Source of the DNA: Planctomycetota bacterium
GTDB lineage: Bacteria > Planctomycetota > UBA1135 > GCA-002686595
Assembly (NCBI GenBank): GCA_022446815.1
Contig: JAKVCD010000001.1
Coordinates: forward strand, 170,997 to 234,996
Direction of reading: 5' to 3'
Length of the DNA: 64,000 nucleotides
Shown here: positions 51,243 through 62,944 of the stretch, piece by piece
Layout of the letters: each line of letters begins with the position of its first letter
Numbering within the stretch: the stretch's first letter is position 1
The notes under the pieces: model-generated
What the model was told of the DNA's origin: nothing
The model's input: only the letters and a program-made list of their open reading frames with translations
The model's database searches: none
Program-made: the position numbers and the translations under genes

Positions 51243-52259
51243 ATGAAGACTGAGCCCACCGTGACGAGCCCCCAAGACACTGACCCGAACATGGCCCCGC
51301 GCCTCGAGCGCGCGCGCGAGGTCGTGCGCCTTGAGGCGCAAACGATCGCCGGATTGGAGGAGCGCCTAGACGACCGCTTCTCTGCGGCCTGCGAGGAGGT
51401 CCTCAAGTGCAAGGGCCACGTCGTCGTCTCTGGGATGGGGAAGGCTGGCCTCGTCGGGCAGAAGATCTCCGCGACCCTGGCCTCCACCGGCACGCCCTCG
51501 ATCTTCCTCCACCCTGGCGAGGCTCTGCATGGAGACCTCGGTCGCATCCGCTCAGAAGACGTCGTGCTCGCCATGTCGAACTCTGGAGAGACGGACGAGC
51601 TGAACGCCCTCGTTCCTGTCGCGAGGCGCATCGGCGCGAAGGTCATCGCGCTCACGGGCAACGGTGAGTCCACCCTCGCTCAGCTCGCCGACGCGGTGCT
51701 CGACTACGGCGCGGTGGAGGAGGCCTGCCCGATGAAGCTCGCGCCGACGGCCTCGACCACGGCGATGCTCGCCCTCGGCGACGCCCTCGCGATGGTCGTC
51801 CTCTCGGAGCGCGGCTTCGACCGAGAGGACTACGCCCTCTACCACCCCTCCGGCTCTCTCGGCAGACGCCTCATGAAGATCTCTGAGGTGATGCGCTCTG
51901 GCGACGAGCTCCCGCTCGTGCGCCCAGACGCAACGGTCTCAGAGGTCCTCATCTCGATGACGCAGACCCCTGGCCGCCCGGGCGCCGCGCTCGTCGTCGA
52001 GGAGGGAGAGGTCCTCGTCGGGATCTTCACAGATGGTGATCTACGCCGGCTACTCCAAGAGGGTCAGCGTGAAGTCCTCGACGGACCGGTAGGCGACGTC
52101 ATGGGGCGTGACCCTAAGAGCGTAGACCCCGAGCAGCTGGTCGAAGAGGCGAAGCGCCTGATGCAAGAGAGCAAGGTCGACCAGGTGCCCGTGGTAGACG
52201 AGGCCGGCAGAGCTGTTGGGCTCCTTGATGTCCAAGACCTGCTCGAGATCAGGATTTAA
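51243..52259 (+). CDS. kdsD: arabinose-5-phosphate isomerase
   Basis: KdsD converts ribulose-5-phosphate to arabinose-5-phosphate, the first step of Kdo synthesis for lipopolysaccharide. The 338-residue protein has a SIS domain (about 35-200) with VVVSGMGKAGLVGQKISATL, SNSGETDELNAL and PTASTTAMLALGDALA. Two CBS motifs follow (about 215-335). The sequence YHPSGSLGRRL is characteristic. An AGGAG lies just before the ATG. kdsC starts 24 bp downstream, so the two Kdo genes form the front of the unit leading to the LptD-like gene. Confidence 0.96.
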   Translation: MKTEPTVTSPQDTDPNMAPRLERAREVVRLEAQTIAGLEERLDDRFSAACEEVLKCKGHVVVSGMGKAGLVGQKISATLASTGTPSIFLHPGEALHGDLGRIRSEDVVLAMSNSGETDELNALVPVARRIGAKVIALTGNGESTLAQLADAVLDYGAVEEACPMKLAPTASTTAMLALGDALAMVVLSERGFDREDYALYHPSGSLGRRLMKISEVMRSGDELPLVRPDATVSEVLISMTQTPGRPGAALVVEEGEVLVGIFTDGDLRRLLQEGQREVLDGPVGDVMGRDPKSVDPEQLVEEAKRLMQESKVDQVPVVDEAGRAVGLLDVQDLLEIRI

Positions 52260-52283: not shown

Positions 52284-52817
52284 ATGAGCGAAGCGTCCGA
52301 GACAGCAGACGAAGACCTCAGCCGCCGACTCGCGAAGATTCGGTTGGCGGTCTTCGACGTTGACGGGACCCTCACGGACGGACGCGTCATCTACGCGGGC
52401 GCAGCAGAGCAGCAGTCTTTCTCTGTGAAGGATGGCTACGCGCTCGCGCGCCTAAAGCACGCCGACATCGCTCAGGTGTGGATCACCGGCAGAGGCTGCG
52501 AGGCGACAGAGCGTCGCGCTCGAGAGCTCGGCGTCACCGAGCTGCTCCTTAAGGTTCGCGACAAAACAGCAGCCCTCGCTGAGGTGCAGGCGCGGCTGGG
52601 GTTGTCTAAGGAAGAGACCCTGGTGATGGGTGACGACATCCCCGACCTCGAGATGCGAGCGGGGGCAGAGCTGTTCGCCGCGCCGCGAGACGCCGCACCA
52701 GAGGTCGTCGAGCGCGCCGACATCCTCTCTGTGTTTGACGGGGGCGTAGGCGCGGCTCGAGAGGTCTGTCGCCTGCTCCTGTTGGCGCAAGGCGCGTGGC
52801 CAGGGAGCGAGGGCTAG
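52284..52817 (+). CDS. kdsC: Kdo-8-phosphate phosphatase
   Basis: KdsC is a HAD-family phosphatase that releases Kdo from Kdo-8-phosphate. The 177-residue protein is of the small C0 type, with the nucleophile motif VFDVDGTLTDGRVIY at about residue 24-38, a VWITGRG motif II, a Lys-containing segment (LLKVRDKTAAL) and the acidic motif VMGDDIPDLEM. It is followed almost immediately (stop 52815-52817, GTG at 52820) by the large OstA/LptD-like gene, repeating the kdsD-kdsC-lpt gene order of Proteobacteria. Confidence 0.96.
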   Translation: MSEASETADEDLSRRLAKIRLAVFDVDGTLTDGRVIYAGAAEQQSFSVKDGYALARLKHADIAQVWITGRGCEATERRARELGVTELLLKVRDKTAALAEVQARLGLSKEETLVMGDDIPDLEMRAGAELFAAPRDAAPEVVERADILSVFDGGVGAAREVCRLLLLAQGAWPGSEG

Positions 52818-52819
52818 CT

Positions 52820-55800
52820 GTGAACCTGCGCAAGCCCCTCCTGTTCACGGCGGTGTTCGGAGTCGGCCTGACGGTCCTTTGGTTCGCCAGGGAGGATCCG
52901 AGCGAGCAGGCAGAGAGGTCGCCGCAGCCCGTTGAGCTGCCGCGTCAAGCCCCCTTGGGAGACGGCGCTGAAGCAGCGGTCTCATTTGGTGGTCGGCTGG
53001 AGTACACGCAGTTCGCAGCCGAGGAACGGGAGGGCCGCCGGCCCAAGCTCTTTCGCTTGATCGCAGCGAAAGTTGAGGCAGTACAAGGCGACGTCTATGA
53101 CGTCGAGGGGCTCTTTGTTGAGCTCTTCGAGCCGGACACACAGGCCGTGCGCGCGACGCTCCGCTCGCCGCGATCGCGCATGCCGATACGCCTCCGGGCA
53201 GGCCGACAAGAGTTTGGCGAAGAGGATGAGGTGACGCTCACCGCGGTCGACGCTGAGGTTTTTGACGGACTTCCGCTCGTGCCCGCGCGCTTCGAAGCGA
53301 GCGCGCTCACGGTCTCTCTGGGCGATGCGCTCTACACAACGCCAGAGCGCGTGACCCTGCGGAGTCCAGACCGTGGCCCGGGCGCGCTCGCCACGGGGAG
53401 CGAGTTCACCCTAGACCAGCGAGCCGGGCTCATTCGCTTCGGGCAGAAAGGAGAGATCACCTTCTCGCTAGAGGAGGGCGCGCCGACCTCACTCAAGGCG
53501 ACAGGCGCCGGAGCGCTGAGCGTGGAACGCGTCTCCGACGATGGGACTGTGCGGGTCCTCGTAGAGGGGGGCGCGCGCCTTGAGACGGACCAAGGTGGGG
53601 GCGCGATACTCACCGCCCAGCGGGTGGAGCTTGTGGGGGCTCCGGGGCCGAACGGCGCGATCCTCGCCCGCTCTGCCTCAGCGAGCGGCGACGTGGTCAT
53701 CGACGGCTGGGGTGGTCGCTTCGGCGGCGCGCGCGCGCGCCTAGAGTTCGATGAGAGGGGTCAGCTCAACGAGACACACTTGGAAGGCGAGCCGAGCGCC
53801 CGCGTGCCTCTTGCGGTTGAGGGTGGCGAGGCGGTTGAGGTGACCTTGGAGGCCACGGACTCTGTGCGGCTCCTCGCTGACGCGGGCTTCTCCGTAAGCG
53901 GGCCGTGCACCGTCCGGGTCCAAGACAGAGACTTCGTCTTGGAGTGTGACGGGGCGCTCTTAGGAACCGGACGACAGCAGGGCGGCTTCGGGTGGCTCTC
54001 TGCATCTGGGGGCGTGCGAGCGCGACTTGGGCAAACGGACTATCAAGGAGAGGATCTCGAGCTCCGCAGCTTTGCGAGCTCGGATGGCGAGGCGGAGTGG
54101 ACCGCGCGAGCGAGGGATGGAGCCGTCCTGACCGGAGCCCTCGAGGGCCCGGAGGGTCCGGCTTACCGCGCAGAGGTTGGCGGAGCCTTAGAGCTCGCGA
54201 CACGTGGCGAGGAGCTCTTCATTCGCCGCGCGGAAGACGTAGACCTGAGCGTAGAGGGCCCAGAGGCGCTGCAGCTCTACGCTGGAAGCCTCGAAGACGC
54301 CTCGCTCGCTGCGCGGACCTTCCAGGCGGGCGGCGGGGTTCGATACTCAGACGGGCAGCTCCGCGCAGAGGCGGCTGAGGCCTTCTTAGAGGCGGGCGGC
54401 CTCTCCACCCTCCGTGGTGATGAGGTTGCCCCGGTGCGCGTGGAGCTCGCAGCGAGCGGCCCGCTCCAAGGCGGGGAGGTCATCGCGCACCTCGTCCGCT
54501 TTGGGCCAGGAAACCTGATCGCTGATGGAGATGTCTCCGCGGAGTTCCAGCAGAGCTCGGGGACGCTGAGCCTAGAGGCTGCGCTGCTCGAGGCCTCCTT
54601 CCAGGCGAGCGCGGACGGCGCGCCGGTTGAGGGCCCAGTGTTGATGTCCCTGAGAGGGGTAGAGCGCTGCCGCCTCGTCTCGCCGAGCGAGACGACGTCA
54701 TGGAGCGCGGAGCTCACGAGCCTGTCACTCATCGCTCGCACGCCAGAGGAGGGTGAAGGAGCTAGCCTTGAGCTCAGAGGCGCCCTCGCAGCGGGGGCCG
54801 TGCTGCTCGAGCGGCAGACTAAGCGAGCGTCCTTCGCCGCCTCTGGTGAGCGCCTCGAGCTGGGCGCAGATGGGAGCGCGAACCTCGCCGGCTCAGACGA
54901 GGGCTTTGTGCGTGTCTCGGGGAGCTCAAGCGACGGCGAGAGCCTCGGACGAGTCGTTGCGAGGGAGGTGCGTCTGAGCGATGAGCGCATGTCGGCGGTC
55001 GGCGCGACCCTGACCTATCAAGGCGCCGGGGAGGGTGAGGTCCTCATCAAGGCGATCTCCGCAGAGCGCATGGAGCTCTCCCTGGACCGGGCCAGCCTCG
55101 CGGGCGCGGTGCGGGTCGAAGGAGAGACGCGAGGAGAGGGTGCTTGGACCTTGCGCTCCTCACAGGCGCTCCTTGAGGGCGGCAGCGTCACCGCTTGGGA
55201 CGGCTTTGAGTGGAGGGGTGAAGACGACATGAGGGCGACCGGCGACGCGCTGCATGCTGACGCCGAGCGCGTTGAGCTGAGCGGCGCTCCGGCGAAGCTG
55301 CGGCTCGCAGGCCTAGAGTGGGAAGCGAATGAGCTCCGCTTCGACCGTGAGCGCATGCTGCTGGAGGCGGGGAGGGGTCGCGTGCGCTCCGTCAACGAAG
55401 ACTCGATCGAGTTGACCTACGAAGAGATCCGTCCGATAGAGGGACAAGACGCGTCGATCCTCGCTTTGCATAGGCCGCGCTTCATCAGGGGAGAGACAGA
55501 GGCGCGGGCAGAGTGGGCGCTGCTCTGGGTGGATCAGAGCAGCGAACGAGAGGCGCCGCGGGGCGATGGTGAGGGGCCCAACTTGTTCGGCCAGGTTGAC
55601 GCGCAAGGGCTCTCGACGGCGCTCGATGAGGTCTACATCGAAGGTCGCGTTGAGGTCATGGAGGCAGGCGTGCGGCGCGCGGAGGTCGACGCCGTCTACC
55701 TCGACCTCGTCGAGGGCCGCGGCTGGCTCAAGGGCGCGCGCCTGACGCTGCCGGCAGAGGTCGGCGGCGAAGAGACGACCCTCGCTGTGGACGCTGAATG

Positions 55801-57610
55801 GCTCCGACACACTGCGGACGGCTCGCTCACGGCGAACAGCGCGCGGCTCACCACTTGCGACCACGTGACTCCTCACTACTTCATCCGCACCAAAGACCTG
55901 CGCCTGAAGCCCAGCGACGCAGAGGGGGTCCACTGGGACATTTCGATCCGCTCTAATGACCTCGTCTTCGGGGGCGGCCTCTCTCTTCCTTTGCCTGCGA
56001 TCGAGTACGAGGCGGACAAGGCAGGCAGTCCGCTCATCGACCGCTTGATCCTCGGCGACACAGCGCGCTTCGGCACCTTCCTTGAGGCGACGGTGGATGG
56101 CGAGCTTGGGATTATTGAGCGAGCGGCTTCTTTCATCACTCGCACGAGCGCTGAGGACATCTCAGGCGGCATTCAATACCGCGGCTCTTGGTTAGGAGAG
56201 CGCGGCCTGATGTTGGGATTGGGCGCGAACATCGAGGCCGAGGACCGCTTCTGGTTCCGCCTCTATGCAGACGGCTTGGATGACGGCTCAAGGGACAAGG
56301 GCACGATACGCGTCAACCCGAGCGACCGGCCAGACTTCCGAAGCTGGGTGCGCGCCCGGGGAAGGGCAGAGCTCGGCGAGCGCGAGTGGGTCGACATCGC
56401 CTTCAGCCAGCAGAGCGACGCCGGCGTGCAGGCGGAATTCTTTGAGCGCGAGTTCCTCCGCTATGAGGAGCGCGAGAACTACATCCACTGGAGAAAGGTC
56501 CAAGACGAAGACTTCACGGAAGCCCAGGTGAAGCTGCGCGCGGGCGACTTCAGAAACGAGGTGGAGGAGCTTCCGTCGCTCGCCTACTCGCACGGCTTGA
56601 CGCCCCTCTTCGACGTGGGTGAGCGCGCGACCCTCTACCAAGCCAGCGTGGACTTCGGCAGCTACCGGCGGAGAGAGGGGGCCGGCACGATCTCGCCCTT
56701 CGACCCTTTCTTTGACGACGCCCTGGGCACCCGAGGTCTCGTGCGCTTCGACACTCGTCACAGGATCGAGCTCCCGATACGCCTCGCGGATGGCGGCGTG
56801 ACCGCGGTGCCCTTCATGCAGCTCGCAGGCACGCGTTGGAGCGAGGGCGTAGACCCGCTCGACTCGCCACACCGCGGAGCCCTCTCGGCAGGGCTCGCGC
56901 TCTCAACCACCCTGTGGAAGAGAACCGCCTCTGGCGGCATACACACCATCGCGCCCTTCATCTCTCTCTCGAGCGACGTTTGGGCTGAGGCGGGAGACGG
57001 AGACCCCATCCCCCTCGACGCGATCGAAGACCCTCTCCCTGGAGACCACCTCGACCTTGGCGTTCATAGCCGCTGGAGCGACCAGGCGACCGGTGAGGCC
57101 ATCGACCTCTCTGTCTTCGGTCGCTACGCGCGGGACACAGAGACCGTCTTGCCCCTAGAGGTGCTGACGGAGTATCTCGGCCGAGCGGGAGACGTCGCCT
57201 TCGCCTTGCAGCACGACGGCCGCTACGACCTCGAGGCGGGAGAGACGCTCTACTCGCGCTCAGCGATTGGCTTCGAGCCGATAGAGGATCTCTCGTGGGA
57301 GCTCGGCTTCCACCAAGGTAAAGACGCAGCGGGCGAGGAGCTCTTCGAGGCCGCCTCGGTGGGTAGCCGCTGGCGGGTGTCACCGAAGTGGGAGCTGGAG
57401 GCGCGCCAGACCATTTCTCTGATCGACTCGGACGAGCTCGCGAGCCGCCTCGTCTTGCGCCGCTTCACGCACGACCTCATCTTGGACCTAGAGCTCTCAG
57501 AGCGTCTCGGCGAGGGCGGCTCCTCGGTCTCCTTCTCCCTCTCGCCCGTCGTCGGCTGGTCTAGGGATCGCATCGGGGTGTTGGACCACTGGCTCGCCCC
57601 GCGACGCTAA
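52820..57610 (+). CDS. giant OstA/LptD-type outer-membrane protein with N-terminal anchor (LptC-LptA-LptD-like fusion)
   Basis: The protein has about 1,596 residues from the GTG at 52820; an upstream start at 52796 would add eight residues. An N-terminal hydrophobic helix, KPLLFTAVFGVGLTVLWFA (about 5-25), is followed by roughly 1,000 residues of OstA/LptA-like repeated beta segments (patterns such as ALTVSLGDALYTTPERV). An LptD-type transition follows, LTTCDHVTPHYFIRTKDLRL, near residue 1010, then FGGGLSLPLPAIEY. The last 540 residues have the alternating pattern of a beta barrel, with QAEFFEREFLRYEERENYI as in LptD. Only four Cys are present and none lies in the barrel. The neighbours kdsD-kdsC supply Kdo. 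Likely role: lipopolysaccharide transport to the outer membrane. The fusion reading is inference. Confidence 0.75.
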   Translation: MNLRKPLLFTAVFGVGLTVLWFAREDPSEQAERSPQPVELPRQAPLGDGAEAAVSFGGRLEYTQFAAEEREGRRPKLFRLIAAKVEAVQGDVYDVEGLFVELFEPDTQAVRATLRSPRSRMPIRLRAGRQEFGEEDEVTLTAVDAEVFDGLPLVPARFEASALTVSLGDALYTTPERVTLRSPDRGPGALATGSEFTLDQRAGLIRFGQKGEITFSLEEGAPTSLKATGAGALSVERVSDDGTVRVLVEGGARLETDQGGGAILTAQRVELVGAPGPNGAILARSASASGDVVIDGWGGRFGGARARLEFDERGQLNETHLEGEPSARVPLAVEGGEAVEVTLEATDSVRLLADAGFSVSGPCTVRVQDRDFVLECDGALLGTGRQQGGFGWLSASGGVRARLGQTDYQGEDLELRSFASSDGEAEWTARARDGAVLTGALEGPEGPAYRAEVGGALELATRGEELFIRRAEDVDLSVEGPEALQLYAGSLEDASLAARTFQAGGGVRYSDGQLRAEAAEAFLEAGGLSTLRGDEVAPVRVELAASGPLQGGEVIAHLVRFGPGNLIADGDVSAEFQQSSGTLSLEAALLEASFQASADGAPVEGPVLMSLRGVERCRLVSPSETTSWSAELTSLSLIARTPEEGEGASLELRGALAAGAVLLERQTKRASFAASGERLELGADGSANLAGSDEGFVRVSGSSSDGESLGRVVAREVRLSDERMSAVGATLTYQGAGEGEVLIKAISAERMELSLDRASLAGAVRVEGETRGEGAWTLRSSQALLEGGSVTAWDGFEWRGEDDMRATGDALHADAERVELSGAPAKLRLAGLEWEANELRFDRERMLLEAGRGRVRSVNEDSIELTYEEIRPIEGQDASILALHRPRFIRGETEARAEWALLWVDQSSEREAPRGDGEGPNLFGQVDAQGLSTALDEVYIEGRVEVMEAGVRRAEVDAVYLDLVEGRGWLKGARLTLPAEVGGEETTLAVDAEWLRHTADGSLTANSARLTTCDHVTPHYFIRTKDLRLKPSDAEGVHWDISIRSNDLVFGGGLSLPLPAIEYEADKAGSPLIDRLILGDTARFGTFLEATVDGELGIIERAASFITRTSAEDISGGIQYRGSWLGERGLMLGLGANIEAEDRFWFRLYADGLDDGSRDKGTIRVNPSDRPDFRSWVRARGRAELGEREWVDIAFSQQSDAGVQAEFFEREFLRYEERENYIHWRKVQDEDFTEAQVKLRAGDFRNEVEELPSLAYSHGLTPLFDVGERATLYQASVDFGSYRRREGAGTISPFDPFFDDALGTRGLVRFDTRHRIELPIRLADGGVTAVPFMQLAGTRWSEGVDPLDSPHRGALSAGLALSTTLWKRTASGGIHTIAPFISLSSDVWAEAGDGDPIPLDAIEDPLPGDHLDLGVHSRWSDQATGEAIDLSVFGRYARDTETVLPLEVLTEYLGRAGDVAFALQHDGRYDLEAGETLYSRSAIGFEPIEDLSWELGFHQGKDAAGEELFEAASVGSRWRVSPKWELEARQTISLIDSDELASRLVLRRFTHDLILDLELSERLGEGGSSVSFSLSPVVGWSRDRIGVLDHWLAPRR

Positions 57611-57622
57611 GCTCTCTGTCTC

Positions 57623-58075
57623 ATGTTGGCTTTCATCTCAAACCTCCACTTCGCAGAGCTGCTCCTGATCGCGCTCGTGGGGATCATGGTCTTCGGCCGG
57701 AATCTCCCGCGAATCGCGGTGCAGGTCTGGACCCAGCTCACGAAGATGCGCCGCAGCATGAACAAGGTGTGGCGAGAGACGGGCGTCCAAGATGAGATCC
57801 GCCGCATGCAGCGCGAGCTCCGCGAGGCAGAGTACGAGGTGCGTGATGCGGCGCGCCGAGCAATGGAAGCAGAGGAGGCGGCTGAGGCTCAGACAGCATC
57901 CGCTGAGTCCTTCGAGGGGGCAGAGCACGACGAGCACTATCAGGAAGCCGAGACGCCTGATGGTGTGGAAAGCGAAGAGGCTGTTGACGAGCCGGCGGGC
58001 GAGGCCGCCCGACGCGAAGACTCTGCGCCTCACCCAGGCCCGGACCCTTATCCCGGGGACATCGAGAAGGACTGA
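57623..58075 (+). CDS. twin-arginine translocase TatA/TatB family protein
   Basis: The 150-residue protein has an N-terminal membrane helix (ELLLIALVGIMVFGRNLP, about residues 12-29) with the Phe-Gly hinge, an amphipathic helix (LPRIAVQVWTQLTKMRRSMN) and a long acidic, probably disordered tail. A Glu in the helix at residue 12 is more TatB-like, while the length is between TatA and TatB. It forms part of the pore for folded proteins. TatC is not in the window. The Tat-type DctP at 11-12 kb is a possible client. It overlaps the next gene as TGATG. Confidence 0.88.
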   Translation: MLAFISNLHFAELLLIALVGIMVFGRNLPRIAVQVWTQLTKMRRSMNKVWRETGVQDEIRRMQRELREAEYEVRDAARRAMEAEEAAEAQTASAESFEGAEHDEHYQEAETPDGVESEEAVDEPAGEAARREDSAPHPGPDPYPGDIEKD

Positions 58076-58935
58076 TGTACCGCCTCGGGTACAACACGAA
58101 CGGGCTGGCACACCATCGCCTAGATGACGCGCTCGCGCTCTTAGCAGACACGGGCTATGAGGGCGTCGCGCTAACGCTGGACGTCCAACACCTCGACCCC
58201 TTCACCGCGACAGTGACAGATGTCGAGGCGGTGCGGCGGCGCGCGGAAGAGCTCGGGCTCTCCCTCGCCGTGGAGACCGGCGCACGCTACGTGCTCGACC
58301 ATAAGGTGAAGCATGCGCCGAACCTCTTGGATGAAGAGGCCGCCGGACGCGAGCGCCGCGTCGACTTCTATGCGCGCGCCGCGAAGACAGCCGCAGGCCT
58401 GGGCGCGGGAATCATCTCCATCTGGGCAGGCGCCCCCTCGGACGGCGCGACCGCGGAGTCAGCGGACGGCGAGCGCAAAGAGGTGCTTTGGGGGCGGCTG
58501 GTGGAAGGTGTGCGGCAGACCCTCGCGGCCTGCGCCGAGTTCGGTGTGACGCTCTGCTTCGAGCCAGAGCCTGGGATGTTCATCGAGCGCCCTGCTGGCT
58601 TCTTCGAGCTCTTGGAGCGGCTGGGCTCCGACGGAGAGGCCCTGGCGATGACCCTCGATGTGGGGCACCTGCTCTGCACTAACGATCTCCCCGCGGGAGA
58701 CGTGATCCGCTCCTGCGCCGAACACATCCGGCATGTGCACCTCGACGACATCGCAGGTGGCGTGCACGAGCACCGCATGTTTGGCGAGGGCGACCTCGAC
58801 CTCGCTGAGACCCTCCGGGCCCTCCGTGAGATCGGCTTTGAAGGGATGGCCGCCGTCGAGCTCTCGCGCGACAGCCACCGAGGCGCCGCCGCCGCTGAAG
58901 AGGCGATGCGGCACCTGCGAGCGGCGACAGGCTGA
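58075..58935 (+). CDS. sugar phosphate isomerase/epimerase-type TIM barrel
   Basis: The 286-residue protein of the xylose isomerase-like TIM barrel (AP endonuclease 2) family has metal-ligand motifs FEPEPGMFI (about residue 160), TLDVGHLLCTN (about 195), HIRHVHLDDI (about 220) and FEGMAAVELSRDSH (about 260). These enzymes isomerise or epimerise keto sugars, or act as endonucleases; the exact substrate is not readable. No signal peptide is present. It is coupled to the TatA/B gene through TGATG. Confidence 0.85.
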   Translation: MYRLGYNTNGLAHHRLDDALALLADTGYEGVALTLDVQHLDPFTATVTDVEAVRRRAEELGLSLAVETGARYVLDHKVKHAPNLLDEEAAGRERRVDFYARAAKTAAGLGAGIISIWAGAPSDGATAESADGERKEVLWGRLVEGVRQTLAACAEFGVTLCFEPEPGMFIERPAGFFELLERLGSDGEALAMTLDVGHLLCTNDLPAGDVIRSCAEHIRHVHLDDIAGGVHEHRMFGEGDLDLAETLRALREIGFEGMAAVELSRDSHRGAAAAEEAMRHLRAATG

Positions 58936-59324: not shown

Positions 59325-59356
59325 CGCGGAGGGCTCACCCGTAGAATCTGCGGGTG

Positions 59357-62300
59357 ATGTACACCCTCCTCTTCGCGAGCGCTCTCTCCCTCTGCCCGCC
59401 GCAAGCTGACGCCCCCGAAGGCTGGGCTTGGGAGCTCGGCGACCTCAGAAACATCGAGCCTCGTGAGGACTACCACCTGAGCGTGGAGTTTGAGGCGAGC
59501 ATCCCAACCTCGATCCTCTTGGACGAGCGCTGGGAGGTGGTGATCGGGCCTAGAGGGGGCGAGGGTGAAGAGCTGGCAGGGACTATCAAGGGGGTCAGAG
59601 GCCCCCTCCTCGACGCGGCGCTCTCAGCTGGCGAGCCTCAGTCCATAGACATCTCTTACTGGATGGAGGCGGGCGAGGGCCCGCACCTCACGGTTTGGCT
59701 CAATGATCGGCTAGTGCAAGACAGGGTTCACCTTGGCGAGGCTTCGGGTGAGGTGGGCCTTGGGCCCGGCGAGGAGGAGGGCCGCGGGGTGTACTTGGCA
59801 GAAGAGGGAGAGAGCCGCGCCTGCGACTGGGGCGAGGATTTCACGGCCATCACTACCTTCCGCACGAGGGGCCGCGGAACGATCGTCTCTAAGTGTCCCC
59901 CCGCAGGGCCGTGGGTCCCCGACGCGAAAGCGATCTTCGTCCGTGACGGGATGCTCGTCTACGACATCGGCTGGGTCGGCGCAGTCGTCGGCGATGTCCC
60001 CGTAGACGACGGGGAGTGGCATACCGCCGTCATCACCTCCGAAGGCGGAGAGGTGAACATGTGGGTGGATGGCGAGCACTGCGGAGACAACGATGACTTC
60101 TCAGCGAAGGACCGCGATGAGTTCCGGGTCAAGATCGGCGCAGCCAACACAGACTTCGCGTTCCGCCTTGAGGGAGACGTCGCGTCCGTTCTGTTCTATG
60201 ACTTCGCCATAGACCACAGCGAGGTCGACGAGCCCATCAAGGAGGAGCCCGTGTTTCGCTGGGCAGGGACCGATGCGCTCAATGAGCCCGCATCTGAAGA
60301 GGGAAGGATCCGCCTGCGGACCCAAGGCGGCGCCGCTCGCTTCAGAGAGCTCTCTCTTCTAGAGCTCGGGGCCACCGACCACGCGGGGCTGATCATGACC
60401 CTCGACGAGGGGAGCGCCGCGCGCGGCCGCGAGATCTACGAGGGCCTCTGCGCGAACTGCCACGGACTCGACGGTAAGAAGACCACGAACCCCAACGCCC
60501 GGCCCTTTGCGGTGGGGACGCTAGAGAACGGGAGCGACCCCTACGCCCTGTGGCGGACCCTCACCGACGGCTACAAGGACATGCCGGTGCAGGACTGGCT
60601 GCGGCCGGACCAGCGCTATGACGTCGTCCACTATCTGCGCGAGGAGTTCCTGAAGGACGAGAACCCCAGCCAGTACTACGAGGTTGAAGACGCCTGGCTT
60701 AACGCGCTTCCGAAGGGGATGACGCGCCGGCCCCCCGTCGCGGAGGGCGCCGCGCGTGACTATGGGCCAGCGCTCGCGTCACAGCTCGGCGGAGAGGTGG
60801 GCGCGGCGCTCACGATCCGCTTGGATGAGGACGCCACGATCTCCTACGACCTGCAGATGGCGGAGTCCTCCGGGGCTTGGACCGGCGGCTTCCTCGACCT
60901 CTCGAACACCCAGCACCACAAGCAGCGGGGCGAGGGCAGAGCCACGCCCTCCGGCGAGATGATCCCAGGCCTTGAGGGTTGGGCGTGGGGGCACGACGGG
61001 AGCCTGGACTTTGACCGCGGAGAGCGCTGGCCGCGCGGCCCGCTCCCGCGCAAGTGGCTCCACCATCGCGGCCACTATCTCTACGGAGACGACCTCGTGC
61101 TCTCGTACGAGATCGATGGGCGCGGCGTGCTCGAGCACCCAAGCGTTGACCGATCCGCTGGCTTCCCTGTGATCACACACCGCCTGCATGTCGAGCCGGG
61201 TGAGACAGAGCTCATCCTGAGCTTGGCCGAGACGCCGGGGAGCGGCGCCTCGCTCAGCGAGGCGTCGGGCTTCGACGGTGAGGCTGCGGGCGCGTTCAGC
61301 TGGTCGCTCGCGGTAGCTGGGTGGGGCGGCGAAGGAGAAGACCCGGGGCCCTTCACGGCGTGCGCGGCCATTGGGGGAGGCGCGCTTGAGGTGGACGGAG
61401 CCGGACGCGTCGTCCTCAAGATCCCCGCAGCGGAGTCGCCTCAAGAGTATTGGCTCCTCCGCGCAGGCGGCCGCGACAAGGGCACCCTCGACGGCCTGCG
61501 GCTTCTCTTGACCAACTTTGCCGAGCGCGAACGACCCATCTCTCCTGCGAGCATGACCTCTGGCGGCGAGCTCCGCTGGGGAGAGGTCCTGACGACCAAG
61601 GGCCGCCTCGGCGAGGAGGCGCCCTACGCCCTCGACACCATCGAGGTCCCCTTCGAGAACCCCTGGGGGGCGTGGGTCAGAACGAGCGCCGTGGACTTCT
61701 TTGAGGATGGCCGCGCCGCGGTCTCGACCCTCGGGGGAGATATCTGGATCGTCTCTGGTCTCGACGCAGGCCTCGAAGAGGTCCAGTGGAAGCGCTACGC
61801 CGCGGGGATGTTCGAGCCCCTTGGGCTCGCCGTCGTGGACGGGGAGGTGATCGTCACCTGTCGCGACAGGTTGACCCGATTGCACGACCTCAACGACGAC
61901 GGAGAGGCGGACTTCTACGAGAGCTTCTACGCCGACACGGACGTCTCGACGACCTTCCACGCCTTCAACTTCGACCTGCAAGAGGACGCGAACGGCGACC
62001 TCTTCTTTGTGAAGTCCGGCCAGTACACCGACTCCGACCTCGGCGGCGCGGTGATGCGCGTGACCCCAGCAGGAGAGGCCTTCGTCCACAGCACGGGCTT
62101 CCGCACGCCGAACGGGATGGGGATGTCTCCAGACGGGCGCCCGCTCGTCAGCGACAACCAAGGTAACTGGATCCCCGCCTCGAAGGTGAGCCTCACCAAG
62201 CGCGGCGGCTTCTATGGCGTGTTCCCCGCGATCAACAATGGTGGCGCAGGTGAGCAGACCAGAGAGGACTTCGATCAGCCTGCGATCTGGATGCCCCAGC

Positions 62301-62944
62301 GCTTTGACTCCTCTTGTGGCGGACAGCTGTGGGTTGATGACGAGCGCTTCGGGCCGCTCTCAGGCCGCTACCTCCACACGAGCTTCGGCAAAGGCTGGAT
62401 GTACGGGCTCGAGATCGTGGACGGGGCTGTCCCGCAAGGAGCGGTGTGGCGACTCCCTCTCCAATTTGACGCAGGGATCCAGCGGCTGCGGCTGGGCCCC
62501 CATGATGGAGCGGTCTATGCCGTCGGGCTCTCCGGGTGGCAGGGGCCCAGCGGGGGCAAGGACGGCTGCCTCGAGCGCGTGCGCTGGACCGGCGCGGACG
62601 AGGTCGTCTTGAAGGGCGCGCAGGTTGTACACGACGGCGTCGTGTTGGAGTTCAGCGGGCCTATCAAAGCAGCGGAGGCAGGGGACTTCACAGCCAAGCG
62701 CTGGAACTACAGGTGGTCCCGCGGCTACGGCTCTGCGCACTACTCCCTCATCGAGCCCAACCGCAAAGGCGAAGATTCGCTCGAGGTCCTGTCCGCGACT
62801 GCCGAGGGCGTCCGCGTGCATGTGGTCTTTGAAGACATGCGCGTCGCGCACCAGCTCGCGCTCAGCTACGACCTCGGAGACGGGCTGACAGGAGAGGTGC
62901 TCTTTACCGTCAACGAGGTACCAGAGCCCGAGGCTGGGCGTTGA
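59357..62944 (+). CDS. exported mosaic protein: LamG-like, cytochrome c and sorbosone/glucose-dehydrogenase-type propeller
   Basis: The protein has about 1,195 residues from the ATG at 59357, with a GTG just before it as alternative. It opens with a signal peptide (MYTLLFASALSLCPPQA). Residues 30-330 contain concanavalin/LamG-like sandwiches, including DGEWHTAVITSEGG. A single-heme cytochrome c domain follows at about 350-440: CANCHG near residue 365 and an axial Met in KDMPVQDWL. The next region contains GFLDLSNTQHH. From about 780 to 1,100 a propeller of the glucose/sorbosone dehydrogenase type has FHAFNFDLQEDANGDLFFV and TGFRTPNGMGMSPDG. This architecture is common in planctomycetes and is probably a periplasmic dehydrogenase of unknown substrate. 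Confidence 0.8.
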   Translation: MYTLLFASALSLCPPQADAPEGWAWELGDLRNIEPREDYHLSVEFEASIPTSILLDERWEVVIGPRGGEGEELAGTIKGVRGPLLDAALSAGEPQSIDISYWMEAGEGPHLTVWLNDRLVQDRVHLGEASGEVGLGPGEEEGRGVYLAEEGESRACDWGEDFTAITTFRTRGRGTIVSKCPPAGPWVPDAKAIFVRDGMLVYDIGWVGAVVGDVPVDDGEWHTAVITSEGGEVNMWVDGEHCGDNDDFSAKDRDEFRVKIGAANTDFAFRLEGDVASVLFYDFAIDHSEVDEPIKEEPVFRWAGTDALNEPASEEGRIRLRTQGGAARFRELSLLELGATDHAGLIMTLDEGSAARGREIYEGLCANCHGLDGKKTTNPNARPFAVGTLENGSDPYALWRTLTDGYKDMPVQDWLRPDQRYDVVHYLREEFLKDENPSQYYEVEDAWLNALPKGMTRRPPVAEGAARDYGPALASQLGGEVGAALTIRLDEDATISYDLQMAESSGAWTGGFLDLSNTQHHKQRGEGRATPSGEMIPGLEGWAWGHDGSLDFDRGERWPRGPLPRKWLHHRGHYLYGDDLVLSYEIDGRGVLEHPSVDRSAGFPVITHRLHVEPGETELILSLAETPGSGASLSEASGFDGEAAGAFSWSLAVAGWGGEGEDPGPFTACAAIGGGALEVDGAGRVVLKIPAAESPQEYWLLRAGGRDKGTLDGLRLLLTNFAERERPISPASMTSGGELRWGEVLTTKGRLGEEAPYALDTIEVPFENPWGAWVRTSAVDFFEDGRAAVSTLGGDIWIVSGLDAGLEEVQWKRYAAGMFEPLGLAVVDGEVIVTCRDRLTRLHDLNDDGEADFYESFYADTDVSTTFHAFNFDLQEDANGDLFFVKSGQYTDSDLGGAVMRVTPAGEAFVHSTGFRTPNGMGMSPDGRPLVSDNQGNWIPASKVSLTKRGGFYGVFPAINNGGAGEQTREDFDQPAIWMPQRFDSSCGGQLWVDDERFGPLSGRYLHTSFGKGWMYGLEIVDGAVPQGAVWRLPLQFDAGIQRLRLGPHDGAVYAVGLSGWQGPSGGKDGCLERVRWTGADEVVLKGAQVVHDGVVLEFSGPIKAAEAGDFTAKRWNYRWSRGYGSAHYSLIEPNRKGEDSLEVLSATAEGVRVHVVFEDMRVAHQLALSYDLGDGLTGEVLFTVNEVPEPEAGR

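Follow-up and report, generated by a model that had tools for sequence, protein, structure and literature searches.

The window (the whole stretch of 64,000 nucleotides analysed here) comes from a draft genome of a Planctomycetota bacterium. On its forward strand lies an operon whose first gene, kdsD (51243–52259), encodes an arabinose-5-phosphate isomerase with SIS and CBS domains, and whose second, kdsC (52284–52817), encodes a KDO-8-phosphate phosphatase. The order is conserved in relatives and in E. coli, and kdsC is a conserved neighbour of the gene that follows (52820–57610). The latter lies, as a first, sequence-only reading had stated, directly behind kdsD-kdsC in one uninterrupted frame (52796–57610, forward strand, 1604 aa). 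An alternative GTG is found at 52796; the likely start, as also read earlier, is the GTG at 52820, which is 2 bases past the kdsC stop and has a ribosome-binding-like site (GAGGG) before it, giving an uninterrupted product of about 1,596 residues. Residue numbers below refer to the 1604-aa frame (minus 8 for a start at 52820). In E. coli, lptC-lptA are found behind kdsD-kdsC, and the proposal that the gene occupies this slot is borne out by its position in the order kdsD-kdsC-lptC-lptA. Downstream, and outside the predicted bridge, is a tatA-like gene (57623–58075, forward strand), also a conserved neighbour; tatA keeps this position across much of the order. It is followed by a sugar-isomerase-like gene (57623–58935 for both), and further on (59354–62944) lies the gene for a protein of 1196 residues that looks secreted and contains a haem-binding motif, CANCHG.

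The gene is almost certainly an LptC-LptA(n)-LptD fusion. That there is a single frame, in what order its parts follow, and that no separate genes are detectable can be read directly from the sequence; the domain identities are shown by homology. The chain (all parts on the forward strand) begins with a putative transmembrane anchor (PLLFTAVFGVGLTVLWF, 52835–52885), a hydrophobic segment in line with the claimed N-terminal membrane helix and of the same type as the anchors of the separate array proteins of relatives. Next come an LptC-type periplasmic domain (approximately residues 58–213, 52967–53434), assigned from Pfam LptC matches in relatives and hhalign comparison to LptC-LptA proteins, and an OstA/LptA-type repeat array of about 650 residues (53435–55393), assigned from family profiles and equal by length to about four LptA. 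Alignment of the junction places an LptD N-terminal OstA-type domain (approximately 55394–56020), with a TTC...PHY motif that includes Cys1021, before an LptD-type beta-barrel region without cysteine (56021–57607). This fused LptD N-terminal domain begins where separate LptDs start past their signal peptide. The two motifs pointed out earlier, LTTCDHVTPHY and EFFEREFLRYEE, are both present.

Queried alone against Pfam, NCBIfam and PDB sequences, the window protein gave nothing credible, and family alignments were therefore needed. By this route the segments could be assigned through the profiles of relatives to the LptC, LptA (OstA) and LptD families, as the sequence-only reading had expected. 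With a threshold of E 10, a profile of 39 LptD halves found only LptD in the PDB, in four sequences (best E 2.1e-5), which agrees with the claim of an LptD-type barrel; Pfam LptD (PF04453) matches 4 of the 39 family members (best 5.7e-8), though not the window copy by itself. Pfam LptC matches 11 of 28 array members (best 1.4e-5), mostly under the curated cut-off, which was reached by one split array (G018) in the genome search; the match falls at residues ∼76–219 where listed, with OstA in the last quarter. There is no direct Pfam LptC match in the window copy. PF03968 (LptA/LptD_N) matches 4 of the 28 (best 9.1e-5), above cut-off in one of them (L069).

Proteins from other Planctomycetota supply the connection to LptC and LptA. 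One, of 664 residues, matches LptC at E 5.7e-19 and OstA at 4.9e-20, the latter in three stretches, and in a profile of 15 such LptC-OstA proteins the first part matches LptC structures (4.2e-9) and the last part LptH/LptA (5.4e-8). The array profile of the window's family and this LptC-LptA profile align from end to end (769 columns, E 3.1e-37), and 23 of the 28 family arrays score E ≤ 1e-5 against the latter (search size set to 100,000); none of the reversed or shuffled controls does. The array in the window itself has diverged: neither Pfam nor the LptC-LptA profile matches it directly, and it is linked only through its family. Seven conserved x-x-G-x-V positions (near residues 298, 405, 513, 578, 667, 709 and 770) are compatible with a repeat array. 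As to length, the earlier estimate of about 1,000 OstA-like residues holds for the presence of the OstA array but not for its size: about 860 residues lie ahead of LptD, and 1,000 includes the LptD N-terminal domain. About 808 residues past the anchor and linker, minus an LptC of 168, would leave room for some four LptA of 158 (E. coli lengths). The chain as a whole has about six OstA domains, compared with the four cited as sufficient to span the periplasm (PMC3944529). AlphaFold, run on the window protein and L031 (two near-identical sequences only), gave pLDDT 30–33 and pTM 0.26, and the models were uninformative as to the fold.

The window's genome contains LptB (335 bits against a cut-off of 240), LptF-LptG in tandem, and LpxC. 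It was held beforehand that separate lptA, lptC and lptD genes elsewhere would refute the fusion; no Pfam match to any of the three, and no second array, was found in this genome, which is 92% complete, so that their absence is not absolute. OstA was above cut-off in none of the 61 genomes searched. These results also bear on the idea that the chain is an AsmA/TamB-like or MCE-like bridge for phospholipid instead of LPS. Long beta-rich periplasmic examples of these exist, and MlaD of Veillonella parvula joins an inner-membrane helix to an outer-membrane barrel (PMC10665443). However, significant profile matches were only to LptC, LptA/LptH and LptD, the gene is in the lptC-lptA slot after kdsD-kdsC, and LpxC, LptB, LptF and LptG are encoded in the same genome, leaving a phospholipid bridge with next to no support.

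The only cysteines in the window chain are residues 371, 384, 625 and 1021. There is none after residue 1021, which precedes the barrel, and the statement that the barrel half is free of Cys is thus correct. The Cys1021 motif is the counterpart of FTSCLPGSDTW, the motif around Cys173 in E. coli LptD, and the TTC...P motif of the LptD N-terminal OstA domain is conserved across the family. E. coli LptD has cysteines 31, 173, 724 and 725, in contrast to the lone TTC-motif cysteine of the window's LptD half, which does not meet the criterion for E. coli-type interdomain disulfides. The lack of these is taken as a variant feature and not as one that defines the family. The single TTC-like motif cysteine (window 55856–55858) is retained in most family members, although the window protein lacks the barrel cysteines with which it would pair in E. 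coli-type disulfides.

Relatives were sought in 61 genomes (the window's own included), of which 48 had a match, and their neighbourhoods were compared. The gene order is kdsD-kdsC-array-LptD, matching the window. Most genomes of the window's family have one fused gene of ∼1,680–1,920 residues between kdsC and tatA. Continuous fused frames, (near) full-length, were read in 21 other genomes of the family, each a different genus, at a range of 31–44% identity, and further fusions are indicated by long open frames (frame length only). In eight family genomes there are instead two genes in the same operon slot, an array of ∼930–1,020 residues and an LptD of ∼780–840, although in one of these (G253) only the LptD frame was seen. 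Two members of the family (G019, G025) gave no array or LptD match, reflecting either an assembly gap or strong divergence; G019 does have lptF and lptG. Other families of the order have two genes in the slot, mostly overlapping or abutting. At greater distance within the phylum, kdsD-kdsC-array-LptD is preserved in several families, and in others LptD has no array beside it. The LptD profile matches 262 of 292 sampled Planctomycetota genomes, and LptD frames of >1,600 residues are restricted to the window's family. Within this sample the fusion, whose phylogenetic spread the first reading had left to be determined, is thus confined to a single family. Frames of 1,300–1,500 residues outside the family were read as candidates for independent fusions and rejected: G058 (in which a signal peptide of its own is present), G060 and G304 have stand-alone LptDs, and the G226 frame is a separate array.

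An assembly or frameshift artefact that merged two genes was considered, given the draft genome and the existence of two-gene relatives, but is scarcely conceivable: the same fusion recurs across genera at the identities given above, and one relative (L031) is 82% identical to the window protein from residue 338 to the end, continuous across the junction. Moreover, fused and split forms group on the LptD-domain tree (46 rows), where the fused state needs 2 changes against a shuffled mean of 14.9. A single fused clade is neither rejected nor demonstrated (AU p 0.07), and two fusions explain the tree about as well as a single fusion followed by one split. In the split genomes the array and LptD genes often overlap by 1–4 bases (L060:7995–13249, L080:3196–8804, L083:4312–9041, L059:2076–7465). 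This means that few mutations are needed to separate or join them.

The comparison of fused and split forms also bears on the fate of the N-terminus. Fused proteins and separate arrays share the N-terminal block MKRLLLFLLLFGxGLxVLxW, behind which the sequence is charged or rich in proline, and the anchor of the fused proteins has a 15-residue hydrophobicity of 2.1–3.3. Separate LptDs have their own short signal peptide, mostly ending in ...A-Q-E. No second signal was seen at the junction of the fused proteins, where median hydrophobicity is 0.87, compared with 1.81 at the starts of separate LptDs (an assessment by hydrophobicity and motif check, not SignalP). Since the fused proteins keep the array anchor and lack an LptD signal, the anchor is the only export signal remaining. 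An anchor retained uncleaved in the inner membrane is therefore favoured, but not proven. If the helix were instead cleaved off as a signal peptide, the protein would be an LptD of the outer membrane, much enlarged in its periplasmic domain and docking non-covalently on LptB2FG. A loose A-x-A-like match near the helix in 5 of the 21 fused relatives is consistent with removal. Against it, the helix is long and strongly hydrophobic, with a conserved K/R-x-L-L-F...G-x-G-L...V-L-x-W pattern and charged residues behind; it resembles the anchors of separate arrays and not the A-Q-E signal peptides of separate LptDs, and no other LptC was found that could dock on LptB2FG. Removal of the helix is, on balance, improbable.

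Unlikely too, if somewhat less so, is that the product is a precursor which periplasmic cleavage, either between array and LptD or after the anchor, turns into the usual separate LptC-LptA and LptD. Close relatives do use both parts as separate proteins, from which it also follows that covalent linkage is not essential, and some fused relatives have a polar insert of 30–40 residues near the junction that is a possible cleavage site. On the other hand, the junction has no signal-peptidase-like hydrophobic segment, and no long linker separates the OstA repeats from the LptD N-terminal OstA domain in the window protein and most of its relatives.

The preferred reading is an intact covalent Lpt bridge, which is considered probable; the uncleaved anchor, the intact chain, the span of two membranes and the activity in LPS transport are all inferred. 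One chain would hold the inner-membrane anchor, the LptC domain, about four LptA equivalents, the LptD N-terminal domain and the LptD barrel. LptB2FG would take LPS out of the inner membrane and hand it to the LptC part, from where it would slide to the LptD barrel through one continuous jellyroll groove, in a bridge pre-assembled with fixed length and 1:n:1 stoichiometry. It is reasonably likely that this is a permanently assembled covalent bridge: a single polypeptide, held in the inner membrane at one end and forming an outer-membrane barrel at the other, that combines LptC and LptD with a set number of LptA modules. There is no explanation of how BAM would handle a chain that is still held in the inner membrane, and this counts against an intact bridge. 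The covalent span has no experimental support, and as post-translational cleavage is invisible in sequence it cannot be excluded. An intact bridge would show that LPS can be transported without a bridge being put together and taken apart, and that tethering of a chain in the inner membrane does not prevent insertion of its barrel.

According to a review, it is not known how many LptA form the bridge, and four OstA domains have been suggested to span the periplasm (PMC3944529). Bridge dynamics are still a question, and a natural single chain bears on LptA number and stoichiometry. A chain encoded by one gene fixes order, number and stoichiometry, and would offer a direct answer for this lineage as well as a construct for structure determination. 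The OstA-like part ahead of LptD, ∼870–990 residues in relatives, keeps within a narrow range across the family (∼860–990 aa), like a ruler for the periplasm, and the occurrence of fused and split versions within one family allows matched comparisons for anchor, signal peptide and processing.

The window chain shares its domain types, and their order from inner to outer membrane, with the E. coli LptB2FGC-A-DE system. There, however, the bridge consists of three separate proteins with non-covalent LptA contacts, and LptD is encoded elsewhere in the E. coli genome, so that the window chain differs in being a single polypeptide. In design it comes nearest to V. parvula MlaD, where a single chain likewise carries both a helix in the inner membrane and a barrel in the outer one and is proposed to span the periplasm (PMC10665443), but MlaD belongs to a phospholipid (MCE) system, is modelled as a hexamer and has a helical spacer, unlike the LPS-type chain described here. 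The barrel form of MlaD was reported absent from PVC bacteria (PMC10665443). LptD was reported in 2012 from every Planctomycetes genome available at that time, in a paper that says nothing of LptA, LptC or fusions (PMC3422733). No description of LptC, LptA and LptD in one chain was found in the open literature (most subscription journals were outside the scope), and in this respect the claim of an undescribed design stands for the complete LptC-LptA(n)-LptD chain. It does not extend to OstA multi-domain fusions, which are already known: a review notes that many Gram-negatives encode proteins in which up to four such domains are joined (PMC3944529). Like the window chain, such proteins, including the LptC-LptA proteins of Planctomycetota, combine several OstA domains with an N-terminal anchor. 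Several other Planctomycetota families have LptC and about three LptA domains in one protein of ∼650–1,190 residues, not fused to LptD; these stop before LptD, whereas the window chain continues into it. They are found apart from or beside LptD (L218:2140–4131, forward strand; L229:3466–6801, reverse strand; also L230, L232, L233, L234, L224 and L226), and most of them have strong Pfam scores for both domains.
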